From Hyphomicrobiales bacterium (GTDB taxonomy: Bacteria; Pseudomonadota; Alphaproteobacteria; Rhizobiales; Rhizobiaceae), in the NCBI GenBank assembly GCA_900473805.1, contig UCMS01000008.1:62001-126000 (forward strand): a stretch of 64,000 nt of DNA, read 5' to 3'. A program made the position numbers and the translations under genes. Positions within the stretch are counted from its first letter, which is position 1, and each line of letters opens with the position of its first letter. Shown here in pieces: positions 1 to 55,012 of the stretch. A model generated the notes under the pieces. That model searched no databases. It saw nothing but the letters and a program-made list of their open reading frames with translations, and was not told the DNA's origin.

Positions 1-3000
1 AGACCGGCGATACCGGTCGCTCCAAGCGCTGCGATCTGATTCGTGGAGAAGGCTGCGATCATGGCCGTCGACAGACCGGAAATGGCGGACGAACTGATGG
101 CAGCCATGTCGGCGGTCGAGAAGGTCTCGATGGCGTCGATTGTCAAGACGGCAATCTGCGCCGAGGTGAGAACCGCCACCTGCCCCGACGTAAAGGCTTC
201 GATCTGATCGATGCTCAAGGCCGCGATCTGTGCGGTCGAGAGGTTGGCGACACCAGCTGTGGCGAGAGATGCGATCTTGGCGGTCGAGAGCACCGCGAGG
301 TCATCGGTTCCCAAGGCTGCGATTTGCCGCGAGCCGAGTGCTGCGACCTGGAGGGTGGTCAGCGCCTCGACCTGCAGGGTGCTCAAAGCCGCAATCTGCG
401 CTGTCGACAGACCGCTGACCCCTCCGGTGCCGAGGGCAGCAATCTGTTCGGTCGAAAGCGAGGCAATGGTACCCGTCGAGAAACCGGTCACCGCGCTTGA
501 GCTGATTGAGGCGATGTCGGCGGTCGAGAACATGTCGAGATCATCCGTCGTGAGAACGGAGATCTGGGCCGAGGTCAGAGCGGCCACCTGAGCCGTGGTC
601 AGCGCCTCCATCTGCTCGGAACTCAAAGCGACGAACTGCGTGGTGGTCAGCGCATTGATGGCAGCGGTGCTCAATGCAGCGACTTGCGCTGTGGTCAAGG
701 CGGACAGATCGTCGGTTCCCAGCACCGCGATCTGACGGGTTGTGAGAGCAGCAACCTGATCCGTGCTCATCGCACCGATCTGCAGCGTGCCCAAAGCGCT
801 TATCTGAAGCGTTGAGAGACCCGACATCGCAGCTGCGCTGAATGCCGAGATCTGGTCGGGGGAAAGCGCGACGAGCACCGCGGTCGGAATGCCCGCAATC
901 GCCCCCGTCGCGATTGCCGCGAGATCGGCATCGCTGAAGACACCGAAATCGGCCGTGTCGAAGGCTGCGATCTGGGTTGAGCTTAAGGCGGCGATCTGGC
1001 CTGGGGTCAAGGCTTCAACCTGATCCGACAGAAGCGCCTGTATTTGTGTGGCCGACAGTCCCGCCACACCCGTGGCGCTGATGGCGGCAATCTGTTCGGT
1101 CGACAGGACTGCCAGGTCATCTGTGCCGAGAACACCGATTTGGCGCGAGCCAAGCGCAGCGATCTGAGCCGTCGTCAAGGTATCGACCTGTGCGACACTC
1201 AGGGCTGCGACCTGGACGGTGGACAAACCGGCGACCACACCGGTGCTCAGCGCCATGATCTGGTCGGCAGAGAGAGCCGCGATCAGTCCGTTCGACAAGC
1301 CCGCGACGGCGGCCGTGTTGATTGCGGCGATGTCTGCGGTGGAGAAGACGGCGATGTCGTCGGACCCGAGTGCTGCAAGCTGGCGCGAGCTGAGAGCGGC
1401 GACCTGAGCCGTGGTCAGGGCTTCCACCTGACCGGTGCTCAAAGCGCCGATCAGGGCCGTGGACAGACCAGCAACGCCTTGGGCACTGATGGCAGCAATC
1501 TGCGTGGTGGAGAATGCGGCGATGCTCGTGGTTGTGATGGCCGCGATCTGGCCGGAACTCAGCGCTGCAATCTGCGCGGTGGTCAATTCCGCGACCTGGG
1601 CCGGCGTGAGGCCACTCAATTGGGTGGTCGACAGACCGCCGACGCCGCCAGCACTGAAGGCTGCGAGCTGGTCTGCCGAGAGTGCACCGATCAACTCCGA
1701 TGTCATGCCCGTCACAGCACTGGCACTGATGGCCGCGATATCGGCGGTCGAGAAGACTGCGATGTCATCCGTTCCAAGCGCGGCTATCTGTTTCGAGCTG
1801 AGCGCAGCGACCTGGGCCGTCGTCAAGGCTTCCACCTGGACCGTGTTCAATGCCACGATCTGCGTTGTGGAGAGGCCGCTGATGCCTGCAGCTGTGAGTG
1901 CCATGACCTGTCCCGTGGACAGTAGCGCGATCTTGTCAGTGCCGAGCGCTGCCACCTGAGACGAGGAGAGTGCTGCGATCTGCGGCGAGTTCAGAGCGGC
2001 GATCTGACCTGACGTCAGAGCTGCGACCTGCTGGGTCCGCAAGCCTCCGATGCCGCCTGCGGTGAGTGCCGCGATCTGGGCCGTCGAGAGCGAGGCAATG
2101 ACGGCCGGGGAAAGGCCGCCGATCGCGAGCGAACCGAGCGCGGCAATGTCCGCTGTCGAGAAGGTCGCAATGTCCTGGCTTGTCAGCATGGAGAGCTGCG
2201 CCGAGCTCAAGGACCCGACCTGGCTGCTGGTCAAGGCTTCGACCTGACTGGAATTCAAAGCATCGATCTGGCCCGATGTCAGTCCGGTCACGGTTCCCAC
2301 GCCGAGGGCTGCCACCTGGCTGGTCGAAAGTGTGGCGATCGTGCTGCTCGCGATGGCTCCGATCTGGGTCGAGGTCAGGGCTGCGACCTGGCTCGTGCTC
2401 ATGGCGGCGAACTGGCCGACCGCGAGCGCCGCCACCTGTTTGGTGGTCAAGCCGGCAATGCCGGTGTTGCTCAGGGCCGCCACCTGCGCTGTGGTCAGAG
2501 CCGCAATCGCGGCCGTCGACAGGCCGGAGATCGCGCCGGCAGAGATTGCCGCCACATCCTTCGTCGCGAAGGTCGCGATATCTTCCGTTCCGAGAACGCC
2601 AAGCTGCGTCGAATTGAGCGCAGCCACCTGAGCGGCACCCAGCGCCTCCATCTGTGCCGTGGTCATGGCATCAAGCTGCTTGGTCGAAAGACCGGTGATC
2701 GCGGCTGTGCTCAGAGCCTCGATCTGCGCGGTGGAGAGAGACGCCACGGCTTCGGTCGTCAGGCCACCCACGGCTGCGGAGCCGATTGCGGCGATGTCCT
2801 TTGTCGAGAACGTTGCCAGATCATCGGTACCAAACGCCGACAACTGCTGAGATGTCAGTGCTGCGACCTGAAGAGGCGTCAGCGCCTCCGCCTGCGCCGT
2901 CGTCAGGGCCGAGATCTGCGTCGTGCTGAGGGCGGCAATTGCGCCGGTGTTGAGCGATGCGACTTGCAGGGTCGAGAGCGCGGCAATCATCGCCGTGGTC

Positions 3001-6000
3001 AACGAACCGATTTGCAGCGTGCCGAGTGCTGCCATCTGCTTGCTTGTCAGCGCAGCGATCTGGTTGGTGCTCAAGGCTGTGACCTGATTCGCCGTCAAGC
3101 CAGCCACCGACTGGCTGCTCAAGGCTGCGATCTGATCCGTCGACAATGCGGCGATGACGGTGGGAGACAAACCTGGCAAAGCAGACGGAGCGATCGCGGC
3201 AACATCCTTGGTCGAAAAGACCGCAAGATCGTCCGTCCCGAAGGCTTCCAGCTGCGTCGAGCCGAGGGAGGCGACCTGCACCGGCAGAAGGGCTGACACC
3301 TGAACGGTGGTGAGCGTGTTCAATTGTGTTGTGGTGAGACCCGCAATACCACCACTGCTGAGGGCCTCGATCTGAGCTGTGCTCAAAGTGGCGATGTTGG
3401 CGGTCGAGAGGGAAGCGACCTGACCGGAGCTCAGCGCCGCGATTTGTTTCACCGTAAGGGCCGCAACCTGATCAGAGGTCAGCACCTCGACCAGATCGAC
3501 CGGAAGCTTGGCGATGGTGCCGACGCTGATCGCCACGATCTGCGCCGTCGAAAGGGATCTGAGGCCGGCTTCGGTCAACCCCGCAATGGCGTCACTTGTG
3601 AGCGCGGCGATTTCGGCCGTCGTGAAGGTTGCAAGATCGTCCGTCCCAAGGGCTGCCACCTGAGAGGATTTCAGCGCCTTGATCTGCTTGTCGGTCAGTG
3701 CCTGCACCTGGCCAGTGGACAAGGCCTGAACCTGCTCGGATGTCAGGCCGCCTACCCCCGCCACGCTCAGAGACGCAATCTGCTCGGTCGAGAGGCTTGC
3801 GAATGCCGTGGTGCCGATCGCGGCCAACTGGGTTGCCGTCAAGGCCGCGATCTGCCGGGTGGACATGGCCGCCAGTTGACCGATCGTCAGGGCCTCCACC
3901 TGATCCGTGGTCAGGGCGGAGACCGCCGACGTGGTGAGCGCGGCCAAGGTCGTTGTCGGGAGTGCCGCGAGGATGGTCGTGCTGATGCCGGCCACGGCCT
4001 TGTTCGTCAGTGCTGCGATCTCTTCCGTGGAGAAGGTCGCAAGATCTGCGCTGTCGAGGACAGAGACCTGAGCGGAATTGAGCGCCTTGATCTGGGCGGC
4101 CGTGAGAGCCTCCACCTGGGCGGTCGACAAAGTCTCCATGTGGTCGCTGGTCAGCCCAGCGATGCCGTTCGGGTTCAAAGCGGCGATCTGAGCTGTGGAA
4201 AGGACGGCTAGGGCTTCCGTGCTGAGCGCGCCCAACTGCTTGGCATTCAACAGCTTGATCTGAGAGGTCGCGAGGGCAGCGGCCTGCGCCGTGCTCAACG
4301 TCGCGACCTGCTGGGTGGTCAGGCTGGTGATTGCACCGGTGGCCAGTGCCGCAATCTGATCGGTCGTCAGGGCCGCGATGAGATCCGTGCCGAGGCCGGT
4401 GATCGAGGCGCTGCTGAGGACCCCGATTTCGGCGGTCGAGAACGTCGCGATGTCATCCGTTCCGAGCGCGGCAATCTGCTTGGCGCTCAGGACCTTCACC
4501 TGAGCGGTCGTCAGCGCTTCGACCTGGGCAGTCGAGAGGGCGTTGATCTGGTCCGTCGTCAGGTTCACCAGCGTTGTGGTGGAGAGTGCTGCGATCTGCG
4601 CCGTCGACAGGGCGGCGATGGCATCCGTTGTCAGACCCGCAACCGCCTTATTGACGATCGCGGCGATATCGGCGGTCGAGAACGTGACGATGTCGTCAGC
4701 CCCGAGAGCTGCCAGTTGGTCGGACCGCAGTGTTTTGACCTGGGCGGAGGACAATGCCTCGACCTGACCGGTCGAAAGAGCGCCAATCAGGGTGCTGGAA
4801 AGGCCAATGATGCCGGCGGTGGTGATGGCGCCGATCTGCGCCGAACTCAAGGCTGTGACATTGTCGGTGGTGAAGCCGGCGATCTGGCGTGAGCTCATCG
4901 CTCCGATCTGGGCTGTCGTCAGGGCGGCGATCTGCGCGGAGGTCAGGGCGGCGATCTGCTTGGTGGTGAAGCCGGTCACTGCACTTGTACCGAGGGCCGC
5001 AATCTGGTCGCTCGAGAGGGCCGCGACCAGGTCCGTCGACAGACCCGACACGGCCTTGTTGGTCAGAGCCGCGATATCGTCCGAAGAGAAGGTCGCGAGC
5101 GCGTCGGCCGAAAGAACCGCCATCTGTATCGACGTGAGTGCTTTCACCTGAATACTCGTCAGAGCCTCGGCCTGGGCGGTCGTCATGGCTCCGATCTGCG
5201 CTGTGGTGAGGCTTGCGACGGCACCCGTATTCAGGGCCGCGATCTTGTCGGTGGTCAGTGTCGCGAGAACGGCGGTCGTGATACCGGTCGCGGCCTTGCC
5301 CGACAGTGCGGCGATCTCCGCCGTTGTAAAGGTGGCCAAGTCGACGTCATCAAGGACCGCAACCTGGGCTGCGGACAAGACCTTGACCTGGATGCCCGTC
5401 AGAGCTTCGACCTGGGCCGTTGACAGAACCGCGATCTGGGTCGTGGAAAGACCGGTGATCGCGCCGGTGCTCAGCGCCGCGATCTGGGCGGTCGTCATTC
5501 CAGCGATGCTCTCTGTCTTTAGCGAAACGATCTGCTTCGCCGACAGAGCCTTGACCTGCTGCTCCGTGAGAGCCGCCGTCTGATCGGCAGACAGGGCGGA
5601 GAGCTGCTTCGTCGTCAGCTGGCTCACGCTCGCCGTGCTCAAGGCAGCGACCTGTTCCGTCGACAAGATCGCAATGGCCTGGTTCGTAAGGCCCGAAATG
5701 GCGCGAGCGGCGATAGCCGCCATGTCTGCCGTGGAGAAGCCCGCGATGTCTTCTGTGCCGAGCGCTGCGAGTTGCGCTGCGGTCAATGCGGATACTTGAC
5801 CGGGTGTCAGCGCGGCCGCCTGCGCACTCGACAATCCAGCAATCTGCCCGGTGGTCAGCTTACCGACCGCGGTGCTGTTCAGGCTTTCGATATCGTACTG
5901 GTCGAGGACCGCGAGTTGGTCGAGCGTGAGGCCGACGATTGCGGACTGCGAAATCGCCTTGAGCTGCTGGCTGCTCATGACGTCCACGTCTTCCGTGTCG

Positions 6001-6143
6001 AGCGCGGCAATCTGCACCGACGATAGGACGCCGATCTGCTGGGTGGTGAGCGAAGCCACGTCCTCTGTCGACCAGGCCGCGACCTGCGTCGTCGATGCTG
6101 CCCGGATCTGCGCGAGGCTGAGGGACGAAATCGTGGTGCTCAT
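1..6143 (-). CDS. Giant octapeptide-repeat protein A (3' end outside window)
   Basis: The reading frame starts at ATG 6143 and stays open to the left edge, giving at least 2,047 residues. The protein is built from 8-residue units of pattern [LF]-[ST]-[ST]-x-[QDA]-[IVL]-x-[AG], for example LTTAQVAA. Marker octads of the type FSTADIAA recur with plus-strand ends at 6000, 5736, 5328, 5088, 4680, 4440, 4032, 3624, 3216, 2808, 2568, 2160, 1752, 1344, 936, 528 and 120. The spacings are 264, 408 or 240 bp, all multiples of 24. The first 64 residues align octad by octad with protein B at 6442-11166, so the two are paralogues. No signal peptide is visible; the repeats begin almost at residue 1. The ribosome binding site is weak (GGA about 11 bases upstream). 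I do not recognise a named family. A solenoid-like extracellular or surface protein is inferred from the repetition and the sugar genes nearby. Coding status is very likely; function is unknown. Confidence 0.85.
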   Translation of the reverse strand, partial: MSTTISSLSLAQIRAASTTQVAAWSTEDVASLTTQQIGVLSSVQIAALDTEDVDVMSSQQLKAISQSAIVGLTLDQLAVLDQYDIESLNSTAVGKLTTGQIAGLSSAQAAALTPGQVSALTAAQLAALGTEDIAGFSTADMAAIAARAISGLTNQAIAILSTEQVAALSTASVSQLTTKQLSALSADQTAALTEQQVKALSAKQIVSLKTESIAGMTTAQIAALSTGAITGLSTTQIAVLSTAQVEALTGIQVKVLSAAQVAVLDDVDLATFTTAEIAALSGKAATGITTAVLATLTTDKIAALNTGAVASLTTAQIGAMTTAQAEALTSIQVKALTSIQMAVLSADALATFSSDDIAALTNKAVSGLSTDLVAALSSDQIAALGTSAVTGFTTKQIAALTSAQIAALTTAQIGAMSSRQIAGFTTDNVTALSSAQIGAITTAGIIGLSSTLIGALSTGQVEALSSAQVKTLRSDQLAALGADDIVTFSTADIAAIVNKAVAGLTTDAIAALSTAQIAALSTTTLVNLTTDQINALSTAQVEALTTAQVKVLSAKQIAALGTDDIATFSTAEIGVLSSASITGLGTDLIAALTTDQIAALATGAITSLTTQQVATLSTAQAAALATSQIKLLNAKQLGALSTEALAVLSTAQIAALNPNGIAGLTSDHMETLSTAQVEALTAAQIKALNSAQVSVLDSADLATFSTEEIAALTNKAVAGISTTILAALPTTTLAALTTSAVSALTTDQVEALTIGQLAAMSTRQIAALTATQLAAIGTTAFASLSTEQIASLSVAGVGGLTSEQVQALSTGQVQALTDKQIKALKSSQVAALGTDDLATFTTAEIAALTSDAIAGLTEAGLRSLSTAQIVAISVGTIAKLPVDLVEVLTSDQVAALTVKQIAALSSGQVASLSTANIATLSTAQIEALSSGGIAGLTTTQLNTLTTVQVSALLPVQVASLGSTQLEAFGTDDLAVFSTKDVAAIAPSALPGLSPTVIAALSTDQIAALSSQSVAGLTANQVTALSTNQIAALTSKQMAALGTLQIGSLTTAMIAALSTLQVASLNTGAIAALSTTQISALTTAQAEALTPLQVAALTSQQLSAFGTDDLATFSTKDIAAIGSAAVGGLTTEAVASLSTAQIEALSTAAITGLSTKQLDAMTTAQMEALGAAQVAALNSTQLGVLGTEDIATFATKDVAAISAGAISGLSTAAIAALTTAQVAALSNTGIAGLTTKQVAALAVGQFAAMSTSQVAALTSTQIGAIASSTIATLSTSQVAALGVGTVTGLTSGQIDALNSSQVEALTSSQVGSLSSAQLSMLTSQDIATFSTADIAALGSLAIGGLSPAVIASLSTAQIAALTAGGIGGLRTQQVAALTSGQIAALNSPQIAALSSSQVAALGTDKIALLSTGQVMALTAAGISGLSTTQIVALNTVQVEALTTAQVAALSSKQIAALGTDDIAVFSTADIAAISASAVTGMTSELIGALSADQLAAFSAGGVGGLSTTQLSGLTPAQVAELTTAQIAALSSGQIAAITTTSIAAFSTTQIAAISAQGVAGLSTALIGALSTGQVEALTTAQVAALSSRQLAALGSDDIAVFSTADIAAINTAAVAGLSNGLIAALSADQIMALSTGVVAGLSTVQVAALSVAQVDTLTTAQIAALGSRQIGVLGTDDLAVLSTEQIAAISATGVAGLSATQIQALLSDQVEALTPGQIAALSSTQIAAFDTADFGVFSDADLAAIATGAIAGIPTAVLVALSPDQISAFSAAAMSGLSTLQISALGTLQIGAMSTDQVAALTTRQIAVLGTDDLSALTTAQVAALSTAAINALTTTQFVALSSEQMEALTTAQVAALTSAQISVLTTDDLDMFSTADIASISSSAVTGFSTGTIASLSTEQIAALGTGGVSGLSTAQIAALSTLQVEALTTLQVAALGSRQIAALGTDDLAVLSTAKIASLATAGVANLSTAQIAALSIDQIEAFTSGQVAVLTSAQIAVLTIDAIETFSTADMAAISSSAISGLSTAMIAAFSTNQIAALGATGIAG

Positions 6144-6441
6144 ATACAAAATCCGTGATGCTATGTTGTCATCAAAATCAACGCCAACGCCACAACTGGG
6201 CCGATCGCGCACGTTCACCAATCGTGCCATTGTTAGGCAGTTGGGCTTGCCTGAGACTGGAGCGTGATCTGGAAAGGTGCGGCGCACGCATGGCGAGCGT
6301 TAGACGGCGCATTCAACAAGGGACCGGAGCGGCCGTGGTCCAGGACATGGGCACAAAGAAAAACGGCGCCTCCCTGGGGAGACGCCGTTTATCGATGGTC
6401 TTTCGATTTCATCGGCGCGGCCATGAGCCGCGCCGCAGTTC
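6144..6441. other. Intergenic region between giant genes B and A
   Basis: This 298-bp gap separates two same-strand repeat genes. It holds the terminator of gene B (about 6354-6390), so gene A most likely has its own promoter in 6144-6350. That part is more AT-rich than the flanking repeats near 6144-6190. I could not fix a clear -35/-10 pair. Reading frames on either strand here look like chance ORFs. Confidence 0.5.
6354..6390 (-). terminator. Rho-independent terminator of gene B
   Basis: A stem with arms 6361-6374 and 6377-6390 (AAACGGCG / CGCCGTTT ends, one mismatch, tight loop) is followed on the minus strand by TTTTTCTTTGT. It lies about 50 bp past the stop codon of gene B. Confidence 0.85.
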
Positions 6442-9400
6442 TTAGATCGCCTGGTAGGCTGCGACGATCGCAGTGACCTGATCGTCGGTCATTGCGCCGA
6501 TCTGCGTTGCCGTGAAGGCTGCGACCTGGGCCGTGGTGAGGCTGCCGAAGTCTCCGGTTTCGAGGCCGGCAATTGCCTTGGTGCTGATTGCGGCGATATC
6601 GGCGGTCGAGAAGGTGACCAGATCCGCCGTCGCCAGAGCAGCGATGGCAGCCGAGCCAAGAGAAGCGACCTGACCGGACGTCAGAGCTTCGACCTGGGCG
6701 GTGCTGAAGGCATCGATCTGCGCCGTGGACAGGGCGGAGACCGCTGCAGTGCCGAGGACCGCAACCTGACCGGTGGTCAGAGCCGCGACGCTGGCCGTGG
6801 TCAGAACCTTGACCTGCGACGAGGTGAGAGCCGCCGTCTGGGCCGTGCTCAGACCAGCCACCTGAGCCGTGGTCAGGACACCGATCTGGGCAGTGCCAAG
6901 CGCCGCGACCTGAGCGGTGGACAGACCAGCGGTCTGAGCCGTTGTCAGTGCCGCAATGTTCGCCGTCGACAGACCGGCCAGAGCCTTGGAGCTGATTGCC
7001 GCGATGTCCGCCGACGAGAAGGTCGCGAGGTCATCGGTGCCGAGTGCTGCCAAAGCCGTGGAGCTCAAACCAGCAATCTGCGTTGTCGTCAGTGCCGCAA
7101 CCTGGGCGGTTGTCAGCACACCGACCTGCGTCGAGGTCAGCGCTGCGAGCAGCGAGCTGCTGAGGCCAGCGACCTGGCCGGTGGTGAGAGCGGCGATGTT
7201 CGCCGTGCTCAGCGACGAGACCTGGGTCGCCTTCAGCGCGGAGAGCTGACCGGTGGTCAGTGCCGCCGCCTGGGTGGTGGTCAGAGCGCCCAACTGAGCG
7301 GTCGACAGAGACGACAGCTGAGTCGAGGTCAGACCGGCGAGCTGGGCGGTCGTCAGAGCCGCGACATTGGCGGTCGAGAGGCCAGCCAGTGCCTTGGTGC
7401 TGATTGCGGCGATGTCGGACGATGCGAAGAGCGCCAGATCATCGGTTCCAAGAGCACCGAGGGCAGCGGAGCCAAGAGCGCCGATCTGCGTGGAGGTCAG
7501 CACATCGACCTGTGCCGTGGTCAGGGCGGAGATCTGGGTCGACGACAGGGCGGCAACCGCCTTGCTGTTGAGCACTGCGACCTGCCCAGTGGTCAGAGCA
7601 GCGATGTTTGCCGTGTTCAGCGCCGTTACCTGGGTGGAGCCAAGGCCGCTCACCTGGAGGGTCGACAGACCTGCCACCTGAGCCGTGGTCAATGCACCGA
7701 CCTGCGTGGAGCTGAAGGCGCCGATCTGCGTCGTCGTCAGCGCGGCCGCCTGGGCGGTGGTGAGGGCAGCCACGTTGGCCGTGGAGAGGCCCGCAATGCT
7801 CTTGGAGTTGATCGCGGCGATCTCTGCAGTGGAGAAGGTTGCAAGATCGTCGGTACCGAGAGCAGCCAGAGCTGCCGAACCGAGGCCGGCGATCTGGGTG
7901 CTGTCCAGCGCGTTAACCTGGGCCGTGGTCAAGGCGCCGATCTGGGCCGAGGACATGGCGCCGAGCTGAGCCGAGCTGAAGGCTGCAACCTGGCCCGTGG
8001 TCAGGGCCGCGACATTGGCGGTGGACAGGCCGGAGATCGACTTGCTGGAGATTGCGGCGATGTCGAGCGTCGAGAAGAGCGCGATATCGTCGGTGCCGAG
8101 GGCGGCCAGATCTTCAGAGCCGAGAGCGGCAACCTGGGCCGGTGTCAGGGCTTCGACCTGAGCCGTCGTCATGGCCGTGAACTGGGCCGAAGACAGGGCG
8201 CCGACAGCGGCAGAGCCGAGAGCGGCGATCTGGCCGGTGGTCAGAACCGCGAGATTGGCGGTGCTCAAGCCAGCAACCTGCGTCGAGCTCAGGGCGCCGA
8301 CCTGCGTGGAGGTCAGAGCCGCTGCCTGGGCGGTCGTGAGCGCTCCGAGCTGCGCAGTGCTGAGGGCTGCGACCTGGGCGGTGGTGAACCCTGCTGTCTG
8401 GGCCGTGGTGAGGCCGGCGAGTGCTGCCGTGGACAGGCCGGAAATCGCCTTGCTGCTGATCAGAGCAATGTCAGCCGACGTGAAGGTCGCGAGGTCGTCC
8501 GTGCCAAGCGCGGCGACTGCTGCCGAGCTGAGGCCCGCGATCTGGCCGGTGGACAGGGCCGCAACCTGAGCGGTTGTCAGGGCCGCCATCTGCGTGCTGC
8601 TGAGCGAGGCCATAGCCTTGGAGCTCAGGGCGACAATCGCAGCGGTGGTGAGCGCGGCAATGTTAGCGGTGTTGAGGGCTGCGACCTGGGTAGAGCCAAG
8701 ACCGGCGACCTGCGCCGTCGTGAAGGCAGCAACCTGGGCCGTGGTGAGCGAACCAACCTGGGTCGAGGTCAAAGCGCCAACCTGAGCCGAGGTAAGGGCA
8801 GCAACCTGCGTGGTGTCGAAGGAGCCGAGGGCAGCGGTGGTCAGACCGGAGATCGCCTTCGAGCTCAGGGCAGCGACATCGTCCGTCGAGAAGGTATCGA
8901 TGTCATCAGCCATCAGAGCGCTGAGCTGTACCGAGCTCAGGAGAGCGAGCTGAGCGGGGCCGAAGCCGTTGATCTGTCCGGTGTTGAAGACATCCATCTG
9001 TGCCGAAGACAGGCCGGCGATTGCCTTGCTGCTAAGCGCACCGATCTGGGCGGTTGTCATGTTCTGCAGCTGGGTCGTGCCGAGCGCCGCAGCCTGGGTC
9101 GAGCCAAGGGCAGCAACCTGCGCCGTGGACAGCACAGCGACGCTGCCGGTGGTCAGCGAGGCGATCTGGGCCGTCGAGAGAGCAGCGACCATGGCAGTAC
9201 TGAGGGCCGTGGCCTGTGCCGTGGTAAGTGTCGCAAGTGCGGCGGTCGAAAGACCGGCGACCGCCTTGGTGCTGATGGCGGCAATTTCTGCCGTCGAGAA
9301 GGTCGCGATATCGTCGGTGCCGAGAGCAGCCAGAGCTGCCGAACCAAGGCCGGCGATCTGCGTGCTGCCCAGTGCGTTCACCTGGGCCGTGGTCAAGGCG

Positions 9401-11166
9401 CCGATCTGGGCCGAGGACATGGCGCCGAGCTGGGCCGAGCTGAGGGCTGCAACCTGGCCCGTGGTCAGGGCCGCGACGTTGGCGGTGGACAGGCCGGAGA
9501 TCGACTTGCTGGAGATTGCGGCGATGTCGAGCGTCGAGAAGAGCGCGATATCGTCGGTGCCGAGGGCGGCCAGATCTTCAGAGCCGAGAGCGGCAACCTG
9601 GGCCGGCGTCAGGGCTTCGACCTGAGCGGTCGTCAGCGCGGTGAACTGGGCCGAAGACAGGGCGCCGACAGCGGCAGAGCCGAGAGCGGCGATCTGGCCG
9701 GTGGAGAGAACCGCCAGATTGGCGGTGCTGAGCGCCGAGACCTGTGCAGACGTGAAGGCGCCGACCTGAGCCGTGGTCAAACCGGCGGCCTGGGCGGTCG
9801 TCAGCGCTGCGAGCTGCGCGGTGCTGAGGGCTGCGACCTGACCGGTGGTCAGGCCGACCGTCTGGGCCGTGGTGAGCGAGCCGATGGCCGCGGTGCCAAG
9901 ACCGCCGATGGACTTGCTGCTGATGACAGCGAGTTCGGCAGACGAAAGGGTTGCGAGGTCGTCGGTGCCGAGGGCTGCAATGGCTGCCGAGCTCAGACCT
10001 GCTAGCTGGCCGGTCGTCAGGGCAGCTACCTGAGCGGTCGTGAGAGCAGCAACTTGCGTGCTGGAGAGGGCGGCCATGGCCTTGGAGCTCAGGGCTGCAA
10101 CGGCTGCCGTGGAGAGTGCTGCGACGTTGGCCGTGTTCAGTCCGGCGATCTGGGCAGAACCGAGGCCAGCGGCCTGGGTGCCCGTGAGAGCGCCAATCTG
10201 AGCGGTGGACAGCGAGCCGACCTGCGTGGAGGTCAAGGCGCCGAGCTGGCCGGTCGTAAGAGCCGCCATCTGGGCGGTGTCGAGGGAAGCAAGTGCGTCG
10301 GTCCGCAGGCCGGCGATGCCCTTCACGTTGATCGCGGCAACCTCAGCGGTGGACAGGGTGTCGATATCGTCGCTCAGGATGACCGAGAACTGCGAAGAGG
10401 TCATCACAGCGAGGTGCGCGGTGGTCAGGCCGGCGACATTGGTGTTCAGGGTGTCGATCTGAGCGGTGCTGAAGCCCAAGATAGCCTTGGTGCTAAGCGC
10501 GCTCACCTGAGCTGTCGTCAGGCTCTGGATCTGCGTGCCGCCAAGGGCGGCAGCCTGGGTCGAGCCGAGAGCCGATACCTGGGTGGTGGTCAGAGCTGCG
10601 ACGTTTGCCGTCGTCAGGGCGCCGATCTGCGCCGTCGTCAGGGCCGCAACCTGCGCTGTCGAAAGTCCTGCCAGCTGTGCGGTGGTGAGGGCTGCGATGT
10701 TGGCGGTCGAAAGACCAGTGATGGCCTTGCTGCTGATGGCGGCGATGTCTGCGGAATCGAGCGTCGCAAAGTCGTCGGTCGCCAGGGATGCGATGGCAGC
10801 CGAGCTGAGGGCGCCGATCTGCGTGCTGCTCATTGCAGCGATCTGGGCGGAGGAGAGGTTGCCGACCTGAGCAGAGGAAAGAGCCGCGATCTGGCTGGTG
10901 CCGAGAGCGCTGATCTTGGCGGAGTCGATCACCGCGAGCTGACCGGCGCTGAGGCCGACCATGGAGGCGGCCGAAACAGCGCTGAGCTGGGCGGAGCTGA
11001 GGGCCGCAAGGTCAACCGTCTCAAGCGCTGCGATCTGCGCGGACGAAAGGACCTTGATCTGGGCAGAAGACAGGGCCGCCATGTCTTCGGTGTTGAGCGA
11101 GACAATGCTGGCCGTGGAGAGGGCCTTGATCTGAGTCGTGGTCAGAGATGTGATGATCGAGGTCAT
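6442..11166 (-). CDS. Giant octapeptide-repeat protein B
   Basis: This is a complete 1,574-residue protein made of about 197 tandem octads, each with roughly two Ser/Thr residues. It has no Cys or Trp and very few aromatic, Pro, Arg or His residues. A module begins with a four-octad signature of the type LGTDDLAT-FSSADIAA-ISSKALAG-LSTANIAA; most charged residues sit in these octads. Marker ends are at 10759, 10354, 9946, 9538, 9298, 8890, 8482, 8074, 7834, 7426, 7018 and 6610. The spacings run 405, 408, 408, 240, 408, 408, 408, 240, 408, 408, 408 bp. The 405 reflects a seven-residue octad near 10438-10452. The C-terminus departs from the repeat (MTDDQVTAIVAAYQAI). An AAAGG lies about 9 bases before the ATG. 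There is no signal peptide, so export by a type I or other system would be needed if it is extracellular. The family is not recognised, and any glycosylation is inference from the neighbouring operon. Confidence 0.88.
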   Translation of the reverse strand: MTSIITSLTTTQIKALSTASIVSLNTEDMAALSSAQIKVLSSAQIAALETVDLAALSSAQLSAVSAASMVGLSAGQLAVIDSAKISALGTSQIAALSSAQVGNLSSAQIAAMSSTQIGALSSAAIASLATDDFATLDSADIAAISSKAITGLSTANIAALTTAQLAGLSTAQVAALTTAQIGALTTANVAALTTTQVSALGSTQAAALGGTQIQSLTTAQVSALSTKAILGFSTAQIDTLNTNVAGLTTAHLAVMTSSQFSVILSDDIDTLSTAEVAAINVKGIAGLRTDALASLDTAQMAALTTGQLGALTSTQVGSLSTAQIGALTGTQAAGLGSAQIAGLNTANVAALSTAAVAALSSKAMAALSSTQVAALTTAQVAALTTGQLAGLSSAAIAALGTDDLATLSSAELAVISSKSIGGLGTAAIGSLTTAQTVGLTTGQVAALSTAQLAALTTAQAAGLTTAQVGAFTSAQVSALSTANLAVLSTGQIAALGSAAVGALSSAQFTALTTAQVEALTPAQVAALGSEDLAALGTDDIALFSTLDIAAISSKSISGLSTANVAALTTGQVAALSSAQLGAMSSAQIGALTTAQVNALGSTQIAGLGSAALAALGTDDIATFSTAEIAAISTKAVAGLSTAALATLTTAQATALSTAMVAALSTAQIASLTTGSVAVLSTAQVAALGSTQAAALGTTQLQNMTTAQIGALSSKAIAGLSSAQMDVFNTGQINGFGPAQLALLSSVQLSALMADDIDTFSTDDVAALSSKAISGLTTAALGSFDTTQVAALTSAQVGALTSTQVGSLTTAQVAAFTTAQVAGLGSTQVAALNTANIAALTTAAIVALSSKAMASLSSTQMAALTTAQVAALSTGQIAGLSSAAVAALGTDDLATFTSADIALISSKAISGLSTAALAGLTTAQTAGFTTAQVAALSTAQLGALTTAQAAALTSTQVGALSSTQVAGLSTANLAVLTTGQIAALGSAAVGALSSAQFTAMTTAQVEALTPAQVAALGSEDLAALGTDDIALFSTLDIAAISSKSISGLSTANVAALTTGQVAAFSSAQLGAMSSAQIGALTTAQVNALDSTQIAGLGSAALAALGTDDLATFSTAEIAAINSKSIAGLSTANVAALTTAQAAALTTTQIGAFSSTQVGALTTAQVAGLSTLQVSGLGSTQVTALNTANIAALTTGQVAVLNSKAVAALSSTQISALTTAQVDVLTSTQIGALGSAALGALGTDDLALFASSDIAAISTKALAGLSTANVAALTTAQLAGLTSTQLSSLSTAQLGALTTTQAAALTTGQLSALKATQVSSLSTANIAALTTGQVAGLSSSLLAALTSTQVGVLTTAQVAALTTTQIAGLSSTALAALGTDDLATFSSADIAAISSKALAGLSTANIAALTTAQTAGLSTAQVAALGTAQIGVLTTAQVAGLSTAQTAALTSSQVKVLTTASVAALTTGQVAVLGTAAVSALSTAQIDAFSTAQVEALTSGQVASLGSAAIAALATADLVTFSTADIAAISTKAIAGLETGDFGSLTTAQVAAFTATQIGAMTDDQVTAIVAAYQAI
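7835..8226 (-). repeat. Near-identical internal block, copy 1 (partner 9299-9690)
   Basis: By eye this 392-bp stretch of gene B matches 9299-9690 at about 95% of bases, with an offset of exactly 1,464 bp (61 octads). Other modules of the same gene are much more diverged, so this looks like a recent duplication or gene conversion. Confidence 0.75.
9299..9690 (-). repeat. Near-identical internal block, copy 2 (partner 7835-8226)
   Basis: Partner of the block at 7835-8226. The copies differ at roughly 20 positions. Both begin just after a marker octad and span one short 240-bp module plus the start of the next long module. Confidence 0.75.
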
Positions 11167-11828
11167 TTACGCGCGCCTTTGACGTTGCGATTTGCAGATG
11201 TCATTCCCCTGCCGCCGCACTGTGAAAGGGCCTGATCACCCTGACACCGCGGACCCAGGCGCATCCTGCACCTGCTGGCGATTTGGCCCCTCGATACGCA
11301 CCATCATCGGTCGTCGTCGAAAGGGTGTCCTAGCGGACTGAAAACTTGAGGTAAAACATGGCTCGCACTGGAGCCGGAACGCGGGAGGCATCATGCATTC
11401 GAGGCCCGGGCGGACCCCTAATCCTGCGCTTGTGAAGGTCGTGACATCCTTGCCTGAACAAGAACCTCTCACCCAGTTCTGCCAGTCTCACTCTAAATTG
11501 AGTCGGAGCCCAGCAGAAGCCTTGAGCCAACCTTGCATTTCAGATTCTAACATTCAGTTAATTGGCGATCTGGAAAGTCGCAAATTCTAATCAGACAATT
11601 TTTGCGCGTCGCTATTCTTCCAGGTCAGCGAAACGCCGGGAATCCGCAGTAATATTCCGCCGATATTTATAGTCTACAACAAAATAGACCCATTGATGGA
11701 CTTGGTGGTTCGCGTTCCACTCAGCGTGGCAAGCCCAAAGCAAGCTAGCGCCGCTAGATGAGACGACGCGCCATGGCGCCCGTGTCAATTCGAGCCTCTG
11801 GCTCCAAGCTTCGTGGAATGTCCAGATC
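11167..11828. other. Divergent intergenic region between gene B and the glycosyltransferase operon
   Basis: This 662-bp stretch holds no convincing gene; the short open frames lack homology-like features or good ribosome sites. It must hold the promoter of gene B on its left and that of the OGT-like gene on its right. Positions about 11530-11700 are clearly AT-richer than the surroundings. A weak sigma70-like candidate on the plus strand is TTGGCG (11562-11567), an 18-base spacer, and TCTAAT (11586-11591). It is unusually long for this compact window and may carry regulation shared by the repeat proteins and the glycosylation genes. Confidence 0.45.
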
Positions 11829-15081
<3,253 letters not shown>

Positions 15082-15146
15082 CGGGATGGCCGCATTGGAC
15101 GGAACCGGTTAATGATCCGGTTCTTCGATATTGAAAGCCCTGTTTG

Positions 15147-16133
15147 ATGACCGAAACCAAAATCCTCGTCACCGGCGGTGCCGGCTATATCGGCTCACAC
15201 ACCTGCCTCGCGCTGGCCGCCAAGGGATATGTACCGGTGGTCTACGACAATTTCTCAAGCGGCCACCGCGAGTTCGTGAAGTGGGGGCCTGCCGAAGAAG
15301 GCGATATCCGCGACCGGGCGCGACTGCGTGAGGTCCTGGCGCAACACAAGCCGGCGGCCGTGCTGCATTTCGCCGGGCTGATCGAGGTCGGGCAATCCTT
15401 CAAGGAGCCGGAAGCCTTCTACGACATCAATGTCGGCGGATCGCTCGCCCTGCTGCAGGCGATGATGGAGGCTGACATCCGTGCCTTCGTCTTTTCCTCC
15501 ACCTGCGCCACCTATGGCACGCCGACCTACATGCCGCTGGACGAGTCGCATCCGCAGGCGCCGATCAACCCTTACGGACGCACCAAGCATATCGTCGAAC
15601 AGGCTCTGCGTGACTTCGATCTGTGCGACCGCATGCGCTCGGTCATGCTGCGTTACTTCAATGCCGCCGGCGCCGATGCCGAGGGACGGATCGGCGAATG
15701 GCACACGCCCGAGACCCATGCCGTTCCGCTTCTGATCGAGGCGGCACTCGGACGAAGGGCAGGTTTCTCCATCTTCGGTGACGACTACGAGACACGCGAC
15801 GGCACCTGCATCCGTGACTATGTGCATGTCACTGACCTTGCCGATGCGCATGTGAGAGCCGTCGAATACCTGCTGAACGGCGGGGAAACGGTCGCGATCA
15901 ATCTCGGCACCGGCACCGGCACCAGCGTCCAGGAACTCATCTCTGCTGTCGAGACCGTGTCCGGACGCCCCCTGCCCGTCACCCGGGCCGAGCGGCGCGC
16001 AGGCGATCCGCCGCTTCTGGTGGCCAGCAACGAGACGGCACGCACCATCCTCGGATGGGAGCCGGAACACGAGATCGACGACATCATTCGCTCGGCCTGG
16101 ACCTGGCATTCGCGCTTCAACGGCTATTCCTGA
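15147..16133 (+). CDS. galE: UDP-glucose 4-epimerase
   Basis: An NAD-dependent short-chain dehydrogenase-type epimerase that converts UDP-Glc to UDP-Gal (some members also UDP-GlcNAc to UDP-GalNAc). The 328 residues carry the Rossmann motif GGAGYIG at 10-16, the catalytic serine region SSTCATYG near 117, the Tyr-x3-Lys pair (Y143, K147, in NPYGRTK) and RYFNAAGAD further on. ATG 15147 is the natural start; a TTG one codon earlier is less likely. As the last gene of the OGT-like/glf/galE set it makes the substrate for the mutase. Rhizobia often carry another galE for exopolysaccharide, so a copy here fits a dedicated supply for this locus. Confidence 0.95.
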   Translation: MTETKILVTGGAGYIGSHTCLALAAKGYVPVVYDNFSSGHREFVKWGPAEEGDIRDRARLREVLAQHKPAAVLHFAGLIEVGQSFKEPEAFYDINVGGSLALLQAMMEADIRAFVFSSTCATYGTPTYMPLDESHPQAPINPYGRTKHIVEQALRDFDLCDRMRSVMLRYFNAAGADAEGRIGEWHTPETHAVPLLIEAALGRRAGFSIFGDDYETRDGTCIRDYVHVTDLADAHVRAVEYLLNGGETVAINLGTGTGTSVQELISAVETVSGRPLPVTRAERRAGDPPLLVASNETARTILGWEPEHEIDDIIRSAWTWHSRFNGYS

Positions 16134-50936: not shown

Positions 50937-53900
50937 TCAATCCGCCAAGACCCGCGGCGACGGAAAGGTCACCTCGACCAGGGTGCCTTCGTTCGGCGTG
51001 GACGAAATGGCGAACTGGGCGCGATTGGCATCAACCATGGCTTTGGTCAACGGCAGACCGAGACCCGTCCCGTCCCCACGATTGCGCGGCGTCCCCGTCG
51101 AGACCTGGCGGAAGGGCTTCATTGCCTGCTCCAGTTCGCTTCTCGACATGCCGATACCGGTGTCGCGGATCCGCAGGGTGACGCTGCCATTCGCCTCGTA
51201 GGACGTCGATACGATGATCTGCCCGCCAGCCGGTGTATAGCGAATGGCGTTTGCGAGGATGTTGAGCGCGATCTGCTTGATCGAGCGACCATCGGCCACG
51301 ACATTCGGAACGGCCTGGGACAGGGCGGTGCGGATAATCACACGCTGGCTGTTGGCCTGGGGCTGAACAATCGAAACCGCAGCCTGGACCATATCGTTTA
51401 ACCCGACAGAGGCGAAATCGAGTTCCATCTCGCCCGCTTCGATCTTTGAGATATCGAGCAGGTCATTGACGATATCGAGGACATGCCGTCCGGAACGGAC
51501 GATGTCATGGGCGTATTCGCCGTAGCGCGGGTGACCAACCGGACCGAAGTGCTCATTCGCCATCATATCGGCAAAACCGATGATGGCATTGAGCGGGGTG
51601 CGGATCTCGTGGCTGACGCGGGCGAGGAAGTCGGTCTTGTGAGCGTTGGCGGTCTCGGCGGCGCGCTTGGCGTTGCGCAGTTCCTCCTCGGTCCGCTTCC
51701 ACTGGGTGATGTCCCGGATCACCGCGCAAAACCCATTCGACGAGTTGAGGCGGCCAATGGTCATGAACAGCGGCAAGAAGCCGCCGGAGGCCTCGCGACC
51801 GATGACTTCGCGCCCGTCGTTGAGAACGCTCGCCACGCCGTGGCCGGATAGGCCGTTCAGATAGTCGAGGATCGACTTCTGGCTCTCATGGGCAAAGAGC
51901 ATGACGAAAGGCTTGCCGCGTGTCTCCATGTCATCGAAGTTGAACAGGGCACTCGCGGCCCGGTTCATCGACCGGATGTCGCCGTCCGAATCGAGAATGA
52001 CAACGCCATCGGTCGCGGTTTCCAGGATCGAGCGCAGTTCATCCACCTCGACCTTGAGGCGCGCCATTTCGGCGCGCTGGGCCTGTTCCGCAGCCGGCGC
52101 CTCGCTTCGGATATCGACCTGTTGCGGGCCGGTCGCGGCGTCGCCCGGCTGGGCGATCAAAGCCAGCATCAAGGCGCTTGCTTCGTCAAAGCGGACAGAC
52201 TGCAGACGGGCTGTAACCGGTACCAGGCGGTCATCGGCACAGACGGCCACGACACGGCCGGACTGGCCGTCGTTCTCGTCCGAATCCTGGCGCTGAATCA
52301 GCGCATCAAGCCCGCCGACGGCGTCCAGTTCGTCGAGCGAGGCGTATCCGGTCAGTGCAAAGAATTCTGGATTGGCGTGGATGAGCCTGTCGCCAACATG
52401 GACCAGAAGAGCAACGGGCATGAGATCGACGATCTCGGCAGTGAGGCAGCGGTCGCGACGCGACGGCAGGCCGTCGAGCGTGGGCGCCGTTGAAGGCTCA
52501 GCCAAGGCTGCGGCTGCAATTTCGGGTTCCGACGGTGTGGGCTCGGCCGGCGCATCGACCCGCGCCGCGTCCTCGGTCGAGGACGCACTGGCGGATGTGG
52601 CGGTCGTGTCGGCAGCGGTGATGGGCCCGGACGGCGGAGACATGCTGAGCGCCGGCGGAGGTGCGGATGCGGGGTTCAGCGATTCTTCCACGCGCGCGCG
52701 AAGACCGAGAGGATCGAGCTTTCGGGCAATCTCGCGGAAAGCTGCCTGTTCGCCCGGGGTCAGGTTCTCACGGCTGCGGCTTCGGTGCTCTTCGAGCTGG
52801 ACGATCTTGTCCGGCTGGTTGGGCTTTTGCGGCTGCATGATGCGAAGCACCGGCGGCTCATAGGTATTAGCCGGGCGGGGCCCTTCATCATTCGCCGGCT
52901 TGGCGGAGGATGCTGTCTCTGCGTCATTGGCAAGAGGTGAGCCTGCATCGGCCGCCGTGGCGGCGCCGATATCGGAAGCCGCGTCCTGCGAGACGAAAGC
53001 TCCATCGTCATCACCCACCACCCAGCGGTCGACGTCATCGAGCTCCGGATGATGCAGTTGCTCTTCTTCGAAATCCTCCGGCGGGTGTTCTTCGCCTTCA
53101 CGCAGTTCGGACAGGAACTCTTCGAGATCTTCCTCTCGCGAGCTGTCGGACAGATTCTCATCGGCCGGATCGTCTGCAGTTTCAACCGTCGACACGAAGG
53201 TCAGACCTGTCGCATTCGGATCTTCCTGGGCATCGGCTGAACGGACGATGCCGAAGCCGCGGAACCCGTCGAAATCCCGGTTGCGGGTATAGGTTGGCAA
53301 AGCCGCGAGATCGACGGGCACCACCAGGCTCGTTCCCTCGACCGGCCACAAAATGGTCTTTCCGGACCAGGTGTCGCGCTTCTTCAGAAGCTCACCGATC
53401 TTGCCATCCGGATCGAGGTTGAACAGGGCGGCGAGATCGGAAAAGGCGACGCCATTGATATCTGCGGCCCGAGGACCGACAGCCTGGGCGAATTCCGCGG
53501 AGACTTCGCTGAAACGGCCTTCGGCATCGATCTTCCAAACGAAACGGGTGGCACGGCGCCCCGGTTCGAAGACAAAGGGATTGCTCCCATCGGCCACAGG
53601 GGTATCGAACATCCGGACCGTGGTCGCGGCCGCGACAGACCGGTCGATGGATGCCTCGACGGTTTCGGGTGTGGTCGCGACGACCGCATCAGAGGATGCC
53701 TTCTCGCCAGTCTCGTCGGTCGCCTCTGTATCAGTCTCCGCCTCCGCCTCCGACAGGTCCGATGCCTCGTGATCGCGATTTGCGGCCGTGCCTTCAGCCT
53801 CTCCGGAAGAGGACGGCCCTGCGGCGATTGCGTCGGAACCACTTACACTATCTTCGCCTACCGTATCGCGCGCCTGCTCGGAGGCAGCACCGGTTTCGAC

Positions 53901-54872
53901 GTCGCGCCCACCCTCTGGGGCGAAGGTTTCCTGATCCGAATCAGCAAGACCTGCATCGTCTTCCGCAACAGGCTCGATCTCTTCGATGGCACCGATTGCC
54001 TCGATGACGTCGGAGAAAGCTTCGGGGCTCTCGTTTGCGTCCGGCTCCCGCTCAGAAACGGCATGGCCTCCCGCAGCCGCAGGCGCATCTTGATGATCGA
54101 CACGAACCGGCTCGGCGATCGCCGCGGCACGGTCTTCGTCTGCCGCGTCAAGCATGTCCGCCGATTCGGTCGGTTGCGCGAAATCGTCGCTCGGGTCCAT
54201 CTGGCCGAGGATGGTCTCCACGGCAAACAGGAGATGCAGCGAAGGATCATCGGAGATTTTACCGATGGCGGCCGGGAGGTAACCACGACCTGTCGGGATG
54301 GGGCGCTTCACCAGGCGATCGGCATCAGCCTCGACCAGATTGACCAGCATGCGGGCCGTCTGGGGCGTCACGCCGAGTTTCGAAAATTCGGACGAGCCCG
54401 CAATCACGGTCCCCTCCCCATCCAACACGGCCATGTGCGTGTCCGGATCATCGAAGCCGCTCATCAGGTCGCGCGCACGCTCATCAACGCCCGGACGCCC
54501 CTTGCCGAGGGCGGGCACCGCCAGAAGCACGACGGCTTCACCGGGGCGAATCTCGATTCGCTCTGCAGTCGCCGTCACGGGCACCTTCTGGAAACCGGCA
54601 GTCACCCGCAGCATCAGGCTGCGGCTGTCACCGGTTGCATGCAGCTGGCGGGCGACAGCGTCGATCTGGCGGAAGGTGACATCGGCCCGATCGGGCCCCT
54701 CTTCAAGGAAATCGTAGATCAAGGGCTGGCCAAAGAATCGGGCGCCCGCACCATTGCACCACAACACCCGCTCCAGCGCCTTCGAAAACAGCACGAGAGC
54801 CTCGCCCCGGGCAAGCCTGGGGCGGATCAGATCATGCACGGCGACATCGATGAAGGGGTATTGGGCGGGCAT
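50937..54872 (-). CDS. Very large PAS sensor histidine kinase (PdhS/PleC/DivJ type)
   Basis: A 1,311-residue hybrid-free histidine kinase. The N-terminal ~220 residues look like degenerate PAS or sensory domains (LARGEALVLFSKALERVLWCNGAGARFFG). From about 230 to 430 it is acidic and low in complexity (many Glu, Asp, Ala), then another PAS-like block (FVWKIDAEGRFSEVS), a second low-complexity part, and two PAS domains near residues 830-890 and 945-1070. The DHp motif HEIRTPLNAIIGFADMM has its phospho-acceptor His near residue 1088. The ATPase domain shows NILANAIRYTP, DTGIGM and GDGTGLGLPL. DHp and HFGPVGHPRYGEYAHDI features are those of the kinases that control DivK and cell polarity in rhizobia. 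It has no transmembrane helix. I chose ATG 54872 over a GTG five codons upstream. Confidence 0.85.
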   Translation of the reverse strand: MPAQYPFIDVAVHDLIRPRLARGEALVLFSKALERVLWCNGAGARFFGQPLIYDFLEEGPDRADVTFRQIDAVARQLHATGDSRSLMLRVTAGFQKVPVTATAERIEIRPGEAVVLLAVPALGKGRPGVDERARDLMSGFDDPDTHMAVLDGEGTVIAGSSEFSKLGVTPQTARMLVNLVEADADRLVKRPIPTGRGYLPAAIGKISDDPSLHLLFAVETILGQMDPSDDFAQPTESADMLDAADEDRAAAIAEPVRVDHQDAPAAAGGHAVSEREPDANESPEAFSDVIEAIGAIEEIEPVAEDDAGLADSDQETFAPEGGRDVETGAASEQARDTVGEDSVSGSDAIAAGPSSSGEAEGTAANRDHEASDLSEAEAETDTEATDETGEKASSDAVVATTPETVEASIDRSVAAATTVRMFDTPVADGSNPFVFEPGRRATRFVWKIDAEGRFSEVSAEFAQAVGPRAADINGVAFSDLAALFNLDPDGKIGELLKKRDTWSGKTILWPVEGTSLVVPVDLAALPTYTRNRDFDGFRGFGIVRSADAQEDPNATGLTFVSTVETADDPADENLSDSSREEDLEEFLSELREGEEHPPEDFEEEQLHHPELDDVDRWVVGDDDGAFVSQDAASDIGAATAADAGSPLANDAETASSAKPANDEGPRPANTYEPPVLRIMQPQKPNQPDKIVQLEEHRSRSRENLTPGEQAAFREIARKLDPLGLRARVEESLNPASAPPPALSMSPPSGPITAADTTATSASASSTEDAARVDAPAEPTPSEPEIAAAALAEPSTAPTLDGLPSRRDRCLTAEIVDLMPVALLVHVGDRLIHANPEFFALTGYASLDELDAVGGLDALIQRQDSDENDGQSGRVVAVCADDRLVPVTARLQSVRFDEASALMLALIAQPGDAATGPQQVDIRSEAPAAEQAQRAEMARLKVEVDELRSILETATDGVVILDSDGDIRSMNRAASALFNFDDMETRGKPFVMLFAHESQKSILDYLNGLSGHGVASVLNDGREVIGREASGGFLPLFMTIGRLNSSNGFCAVIRDITQWKRTEEELRNAKRAAETANAHKTDFLARVSHEIRTPLNAIIGFADMMANEHFGPVGHPRYGEYAHDIVRSGRHVLDIVNDLLDISKIEAGEMELDFASVGLNDMVQAAVSIVQPQANSQRVIIRTALSQAVPNVVADGRSIKQIALNILANAIRYTPAGGQIIVSTSYEANGSVTLRIRDTGIGMSRSELEQAMKPFRQVSTGTPRNRGDGTGLGLPLTKAMVDANRAQFAISSTPNEGTLVEVTFPSPRVLAD

Positions 54873-55012
54873 TGCTGAACCTGTCACGTCATGGCCTCGA
54901 AAGGCAAATTAACAGATTTTTAATAGCTAGGGAGGGGCTTGGGGTCCAGAAAGTGGCCCTTGTTTCGGTCGATAAGGTTAATCGCCCTGAATTTCCACAT
55001 GCAGGAATTCTA

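Follow-up and report, generated by a model that had tools for sequence, protein, structure and literature searches.

Two adjacent genes at the start of a 64,000 nt stretch of a Rhizobiaceae genome (Hyphomicrobiales bacterium, assembly GCA_900473805.1, contig UCMS01000008.1, positions 62,001 to 126,000; in the following the window) encode giant proteins that consist of eight-residue units, here called octads, from end to end. What are these proteins, how do they fold and what might they do for the cell? Our data place both in a repeat family that is already named, show a genetic coupling of the repeat genes to a dedicated clade of GT41 glycosyltransferases as judged from sequence comparison, and predict an all-helical solenoid fold. 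The best reading, which we believe about as much as we doubt it, is that the genes encode giant glycosylated extracellular solenoid fibres. The genes in question are:

1..6143, minus strand: gene A, giant ALTTAQ octad-repeat protein (open reading frame (ORF) and contig read, PF20080, single octad phase)
6442..11166, minus strand: gene B, giant ALTTAQ octad-repeat protein of 1,574 aa (ORF, PF20080, models of both ends)
11829..13868, plus strand: OGT-like protein glycosyltransferase with TPR and GT41 domains, divergent from gene B and belonging to the ALTTAQ-linked GT41 clade (PF13844, TPR, tree, co-occurrence)

The giant proteins belong to the ALTTAQ repeat family

Gene A comprises 2,498 aa if counted from the Met of MSTTISSLS at window position 6143 (residue 49 of the longest ORF; a GTG at 6287 is an alternative start), and its last 1.35 kb lie left of the window, up to contig position 60,647. 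The protein has ~311 octads with the consensus L-(S/T)-(T/S)-x-Q-(I/V)-A-A, gene B ~196. Ser and Thr together account for 24.5% of the residues in A and 27% in B. Cys is absent from both, and Lys/Arg occur 51 times in A and 23 times in B. In a Nei-Gojobori comparison with the orthologues of Rhizobium wuzhouense, dN/dS is 0.11 for A and 0.10 for B, which shows purifying selection on both genes. A long antisense ORF is located at 10054-11235 (plus strand), and other long plus-strand frames cover A and B.

The initial annotation could not place the octads in a named repeat family and held that a confident match to a described one would speak against its proposal. Such a match exists. With a curated cut-off of 26.4 bits, PF20080 (ALTTAQ repeat) matches the part of A inside the window with E = 0 and 1,136.3 bits in 86 stretches, and B with E = 0 and 1,005.6 bits in 68 stretches. 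Repeat sequence and octad register are those of A and B, while the family name is silent on fold or function. The family is thus already named; a function was not found in print, the word ALTTAQ appearing in no paper of the literature searched and a published function for the family being likewise absent there.

All 134 PF20080 matches listed for the window's genome lie at the A/B locus (150 of 193 candidates scored). The family is present in 6 of 289 genomes of the same class and in 20 of 121 genomes of the same family, the own genome being counted both times and two of the 20 (G355, G371) resting on two weak matches each. A scan of named genomes gave 283 matching stretches, 80 of which were kept as 77 loci; they span Rhizobiaceae, Rhodobacterales, Roseomonas, Methylocystis, Burkholderiales, Pseudomonas and others. 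The longest complete repeat protein has 6,267 aa. Length is stable, in that seven proteins of Rhizobium records, 52-98% identical in ungapped pairwise comparison, all count 2,630 or 2,631 residues; B has 1,574 in three records, at 67-86% identity. A PF20080 match was also obtained in the genome search of the Caulobacter control.

A relationship to TAL effectors was considered and dismissed. The matches (E 5.8e-7 and weaker, with many insignificant stretches) are due to LTPxQV helices, and TAL effector repeats have a unit of 33-35 residues whereas the unit here has 8. Likewise LRR_EndoS, Sigma70_r4_2 and CAAP1 scored above their cut-offs without a matched stretch of their own and were set aside as matches to repeat composition.

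A dedicated GT41 clade accompanies many of the repeat genes

The gene divergent from B matches PF13844 at 1e-74 (252 bits over a cut-off of 25); its TPR families are weaker, TPR_14 being barely above cut-off. Two sugar genes follow on the same strand:

13813..15081, plus strand: glf, UDP-galactopyranose mutase (PF03275, 2.2e-75; the longest ORF overlaps the end of the GT41 gene)
15144..16133, plus strand: galE-like NAD-dependent sugar epimerase (PF01370, 1.9e-51)

In 48 of the 77 named loci the repeat gene has a GT41 relative no more than 2.4 kb away. Among the 121 genomes of the family, the window's enzyme has 12 full-length matches with at least 63% identity (own included), the next best reaching 42%. 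All of these fall into repeat-positive genomes (12/20 vs 0/101 repeat-negative; Fisher 1.1e-11) and onto the contig of the repeat; the nearest listed repeat match is no farther than 3 kb in 11 cases and 8.8 kb away in one (G379). If any GT41 is counted the difference is smaller, 13/20 vs 16/101 (p = 1.9e-5). glf occurs in 18 of 78 loci, each time together with GT41, a raw count that has no background rate to set it against. In a tree of 86 GT41 proteins, 57 of 60 repeat-linked rows from alpha-, beta- and gammaproteobacteria form one group with a support of SH-aLRT 98; this is a quick tree with SH-aLRT values only and midpoint root, in which the unlinked rows all derive from the window's family. 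The three linked rows outside the group are second copies in L081, L088 and L114, near fliF. They cluster with L144 (G304), a fourth such copy, which is labelled unlinked and lies ~4 kb from a repeat match. Taken together, distribution and tree show a genetic coupling of the repeat genes to a dedicated GT41 clade, as far as sequence comparison reaches. This coupling seems to be the new part, family and name being already known.

The Ser/Thr residues of the octads are well kept. Between B and its R. wuzhouense orthologue, Ser/Thr remain Ser/Thr at 182 of 183 sites of octad position 3 and at 135 of 143 sites of position 2. Between such close relatives they are swapped mostly for each other, as acceptor sites or helix caps would behave.

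Some further observations concern the GT41 genes. Antisense ORFs in other loci hide real GT41 genes. In L072, L076 and L103 two or more ALTTAQ frames flank the GT41 gene near a DUF1217 gene, in L076 and L103 also near fliF. Six repeat-negative genomes of the family (G316, G332, G339, G356, G377, G382) carry a GT41 gene about 14-19 kb from flhA; their products are for this reason candidate flagellin glycosyltransferases, comparable to FlmG.

The octads are predicted to form an all-helical solenoid

Both ends of B were modelled using AlphaFold2. Residues 1-280 (57 sequences) gave a pLDDT of 95.5 and a pTM of 0.87, the last 240 residues (35 sequences) a pLDDT of 95.0 and a pTM of 0.87. In both models nearly every octad consists of one helix of 4-6 residues followed by a short turn. 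Exceptions are a 13-residue helix (234-246) over a 7-residue slip and the 13-residue last helix (227-239 of the second piece), which corresponds to the following feature:

6448..6486, minus strand: conserved C-terminal helix of B (model helix 227-239 of 240; similar motif in relatives)

Strand is absent from both models (280 and 240 residues, pLDDT about 95). The models thus show an all-helical solenoid with about one short helix per octad, in line with the earlier proposal of a structural solenoid that advances by one step per octad. That proposal had left the choice between short helices and a beta-solenoid; the models favour the former and lend no support to the latter.

The top Foldseek match for both models is mesothelin, a cell-surface adhesion protein, with E values of 4.7e-5 and 5.7e-4; the best mesothelin rows of VIA-align have Z 6.5 and 7.9. 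Published work describes mesothelin as a right-handed solenoid whose 24 short helices are arranged in nine layers, mostly three per turn (PMC10035497). A likeness to mesothelin, stereocilin and otoancorin would consist in a spiral of short helices, perhaps about three per turn, a number derived here from sequence. In contrast to the disulphides and irregular units described for mesothelin (PMC10035497), A and B lack Cys and are built of near-exact octads, and against its 24 helices stand about 200 in B and 300 in A. The Pfam family Mesothelin (PF06060) scores 38.4 bits (cut-off 25.8) in the relative L079, without a matched stretch of its own, and is not among the Pfam matches of A or B at E <= 1.

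The best VIA-align row for both models is 7qlr (Z 8.5, rmsd 7.9, 271 aligned; Z 9.9, rmsd 4.3, 237 aligned), followed by rows of Z 7 to 8, and ARM-type folds fill the lists. We set these matches aside as generic for repeats. 7qlr is the receptor-binding protein of phage CDHS-1.

By sequence, B also matches HeliScrew4 (PDB 9zem) at 5.6e-16 over 104 residues. HeliScrew4 is a 120-residue chain of LTPEQIAA-type octads and hence much shorter than A or B; the likeness is one of sequence. Its name occurs in no paper of the literature searched, and 9zem is not among the Foldseek matches listed, which carries no weight against the likeness.

Octad phase and marker spacing

Octads run throughout both ORFs according to the phase scan and PF20080, confirming the eight-residue unit of the initial annotation. 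In full-length gene A, 136 of 136 strict octad matches share one phase, and a Viterbi scan places slips only at its two ends. Gene B has 16 strict matches in one phase, 103 in the next and 1 outside both; the scan finds one 7-residue unit near residue 243 and a slip at the C-terminal end. The position of the unit is:

10429..10449, minus strand: 7-residue unit of gene B, about residues 240-246 (Viterbi scan, 405-bp spacing)

The phase breaks at this very residue in the orthologues of L050, L053 and L054, too.

A marker octad had been described to recur at 408, 240 or 264 bp with a single exception of 405 bp. The DNA repeat spacings of gene B are, in order, 408, 408, 240, 408, 408, 408, 240, 408, 408 and 405. 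Our own marker pattern gives spacings of 136 or 80 residues, i.e. 17 or 10 octads, with one of 216 (17+10) in A. Both main spacings are hence recovered, and the lone exception is the 7-residue unit in B. The 264-bp spacing (11 octads, 88 residues) was found in 0 of 547 marker intervals in 71 proteins, some of them near-identical. Of these intervals 517 are multiples of eight residues, 206 being 136 and 120 being 80.

To call retention of the octad phase strict, as the initial annotation did, goes too far. A has a single phase and those 517 intervals keep to it, but the 7-residue unit in B and slips in relatives depart from it: the scan gives 15 slips in L059, 9 in L060, 7 in L075, 9 in L080 and 13 in L107, and several proteins contain 7-residue units. 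In L059 (8318-12469) and L060 slips are many, in L059 mostly of one size, so the octad frame can be broken regularly. Recombination between octads combined with selection would yield changes that preserve the phase; quantised lengths alone would thus need no special mechanism.

Number of octads per turn

We analysed the charge at octad position 4 in 200 modules of exactly 17 octads. Along the module the charge is highest at octads 3, 9, 13 and 16 after the marker, with smaller rises at 1 and 6. Its Fourier power reaches 2.4 at five cycles and does not exceed 0.67 at any other number. Of 14 further proteins scanned, 12 were computable and 11 of those peak at 0.293-0.296 cycles per octad, the exception being L112. 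In two Roseomonas-type proteins Gly at position 8 peaks at 0.291-0.292 cycles per octad; one of the two, L099, has its strongest lags at 48 and 24 octads, not at 17. These data suggest a screw of ~3.4 octads per turn, such that 17 octads would make 5.0 turns and 10 octads 2.95. With five and about three turns between them, marker octads would stay on one face.

We infer this number from the charge profile within modules and from the Roseomonas-type proteins; the whole-protein spectrum, with lags that are sums or differences of 10 and 17, is not independent of the marker spacing. Some results speak against ~3.4 octads per turn. Gene B alone has no significant periodicity (power 8.4 at 0.18; shuffles up to 10.7), Gly at position 8 is weak in 21 of 68 proteins, and octad position 5 follows other harmonics within modules.

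Export route and alternative explanations

An N-terminal signal peptide is not seen by eye, the protein starting directly with an octad. No family of GGxGxDxxx nonapeptide RTX repeats is among the Pfam matches at E <= 1 of B and the window part of A, and a pattern search did not find the motif of the FrpC-type self-processing module in A or B, both of which consist of octads up to the end. The opening motif of a FrpC-module-like domain is present near the C-terminus of 12 beta- and gammaproteobacterial relatives (L094, L095, L100, L104, L105, L106, L109, L112, L113, L116, L120, L124), and the two such domains tested match 6sjw at 8.8e-40 and 2.7e-38. FrpC is described as a type I-secreted protein (PMC5233953, PMC7078468). 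A domain of this kind points to an extracellular site of action for those relatives. FrpC self-processing cleaves at Asp-Pro (PMC7078468). In the relatives Ser or Thr precedes the first Pro of the domain in 12 of 12 cases, and FrpC-type cleavage is therefore not predicted for them. Some of them end in PLI (L094, L109, L113, L120) or VLI (L112).

The C-terminal motif might be an uncleaved signal for an ABC exporter, in which case the proteins would be adhesins secreted via the type I pathway like FrpC and other RTX proteins. Apart from the domain in the 12 relatives, a QIAAVISAYLxx-type motif found by one pattern in 51 of 79 proteins is in favour of this idea. In L079, L080, L084, L092, L098, L107 and L115 the last octads are replaced by Ser/Thr-rich linkers and a final VAxxIxSYL-type motif is retained, which suggests a role beyond capping. 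On the other side, the motif simply coincides with the last solenoid helix. A PrtD-type exporter scores above cut-off in 17 of 20 repeat-positive vs 72 of 101 repeat-negative genomes of the family, no significant difference (p = 0.16). RTX repeats are missing from A and B as stated above, and in three repeat-positive genomes (G290, G390, G401) neither a PrtD-type ABC protein nor a type I HlyD exceeds the curated cut-offs. Type I secretion thus does not look universal in rhizobia, and we consider it a possible but doubtful explanation. In Rhizobiaceae the proteins might instead be glycosylated in the cytoplasm and exported by the flagellar type III apparatus like flagellins, perhaps as a coat or companion of the flagellum. 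All 25 repeat-positive genomes tested have FlhA; within the family the numbers are 20/20 vs 82/101 repeat-negative ones; this p-value of 0.024 is modest and ignores phylogeny. fliF lies within 6 kb in 7 of 78 loci, in three Agrobacterium-type loci at a distance of 109-112 bp, and in 5 of 20 genomes flhA shares a contig with the repeat, 14-76 kb from the nearest listed match, but most loci are not close to flagellar genes. An MTSI start is shared by 37 of 71 repeat proteins, by 2 of 683 neighbour proteins (their starts taken as the first start codon of the ORF) and by 3 of the 5 flagellins with readable N-terminus in this genome (8 Flagellin_N matches); a truncated octad could also give MTSI. 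The related TPR-OGT FlmG is described to glycosylate flagellins in the cytoplasm before export (PMC7591256). The genome's flagellins are located elsewhere, no flagellin domain is matched by B or by the part of A within the window, and the 12 relatives with the FrpC motif indicate another route. Overall the flagellar evidence is suggestive only and the route itself unlikely. A secretome paper on R. leguminosarum lists PrsDE substrates, flagellar and periplasmic proteins.

The proteins might also stay inside the cell, as cytoplasmic solenoids that bind partners like ARM/HEAT proteins and are regulated by the GT41 enzyme as OGT does in eukaryotes. OGT-type enzymes act on cytosolic proteins, no export domain is recognised in A or B, and the ARM-type folds of the structure comparison would fit. 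A calcium-binding exoprotein domain is, however, fused to 12 relatives by motif, and giant size, few Lys/Arg and no Cys would suit surface fibres better. We regard such a scaffold as quite improbable. Finally, GT41, glf and epimerase could form an island for polysaccharide synthesis or flagellin glycosylation next to which the repeat genes are mere neighbours. GT41 genes do occur without the repeat, in the 16 of 101 repeat-negative genomes mentioned, but GT41 rows that were sampled elsewhere than at the repeat are not part of the linked group, no match above 42% to the window's enzyme is found in those 101 genomes, and the linked GT41 stands beside the repeat in three proteobacterial classes while no other neighbour cluster occurs in more than 18 of 78 loci. 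Mere hitch-hiking is hence very hard to believe.

Away from the repeat locus, the window contains two ordinary large genes, a 1,316-residue PAS/histidine kinase (50937-54887, minus strand) and an 841-residue methyl-accepting chemotaxis protein (57117-59642, minus strand).

A model for the repeat proteins

According to our best reading, glycosylated extracellular fibres, each gene would give rise to a giant rigid solenoid with nearly every octad forming one short helix and a turn. The protein would be synthesised in the cytoplasm and O-glycosylated there by the divergently encoded TPR-GT41 enzyme. Acceptors are probably the ladder of Ser/Thr at octad positions 2-3, the sugar perhaps being galactose-derived via GalE and Glf. 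After export it would serve as a long glycosylated surface or matrix fibre, adhesin-like. We infer the repeat protein as GT41 substrate, the modified residues, the sugar, the export with its route and the adhesive role.

Several findings weigh against the fibre model. The TM-scores with mesothelin are low (0.36-0.40 and 0.31-0.32 for 8cx3), neither Pfam nor NCBIfam detects a secretion domain in A or B, and the complete betaproteobacterial relative L108 ends without the FrpC-like domain; the three genomes without type I components above cut-offs belong here as well. A GT41 relative is missing in 29 of 77 loci, 15 of which have at least 2.5 kb of flank on both sides, and 8 of the 20 repeat-positive genomes of the family have no dedicated GT41 enzyme. 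A dedicated enzyme is therefore not obligatory. Moreover Ser/Thr at positions 2-3 are kept less between the more distant relatives L068 and L102 (214/287 and 217/261), and the conserved ones may act as helix N-caps only.

A wider formulation would be that these are exported glycoproteins of an undescribed class, namely giant all-helical octad solenoids, by estimate probably tens of nanometres in length, whose N-cap ladder of Ser/Thr is docking and acceptor track of a GT41 clade that co-travelled with them through three proteobacterial classes. In rhizobia they would carry a galactose-derived sugar (GalE/Glf) and use flagellar export, in beta- and gammaproteobacteria type I secretion. As a whole we hold this to be rather unlikely.

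Relation to known systems

The arrangement resembles FlmG and flagellin in Caulobacter, where an enzyme combining TPR and glycosyltransferase is described to work in the cytoplasm on an exported filament protein before its export (PMC7591256). Here the substrate would be an octad solenoid instead. In a tree that does not contain FlmG, the window's GT41 group is distinct from those GT41 copies of the family that were sampled outside repeat loci. HMW1C is a GT41-type enzyme encoded together with the adhesin HMW1. This pair is the second likeness, HMW1 being described as glycosylated by cytoplasmic HMW1C (PMC2877744, PMC3012730). HMW1C makes N-linked sugars, whereas the window's enzyme reaches 29.3 bits against an NCBIfam NGTferase cut-off of 1,000. 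As to RTX exoproteins of the FrpC type, the module-like motif of the 12 relatives, two of which match FrpC as tested, is not found in A and B, and FrpC has Asp before the first Pro (PMC7078468) where the relatives have Ser or Thr.

The octad screw, perhaps with 17 octads per five turns, would be a very regular natural solenoid of short helices, comparable with mesothelin and HeliScrew4. Ser/Thr recur in it as a lattice of fixed geometry, which would make it a suitable object for studying site choice by OGT-type enzymes. The coupling to GT41 gives PF20080 a testable biochemical role and the GT41 clade a candidate substrate.

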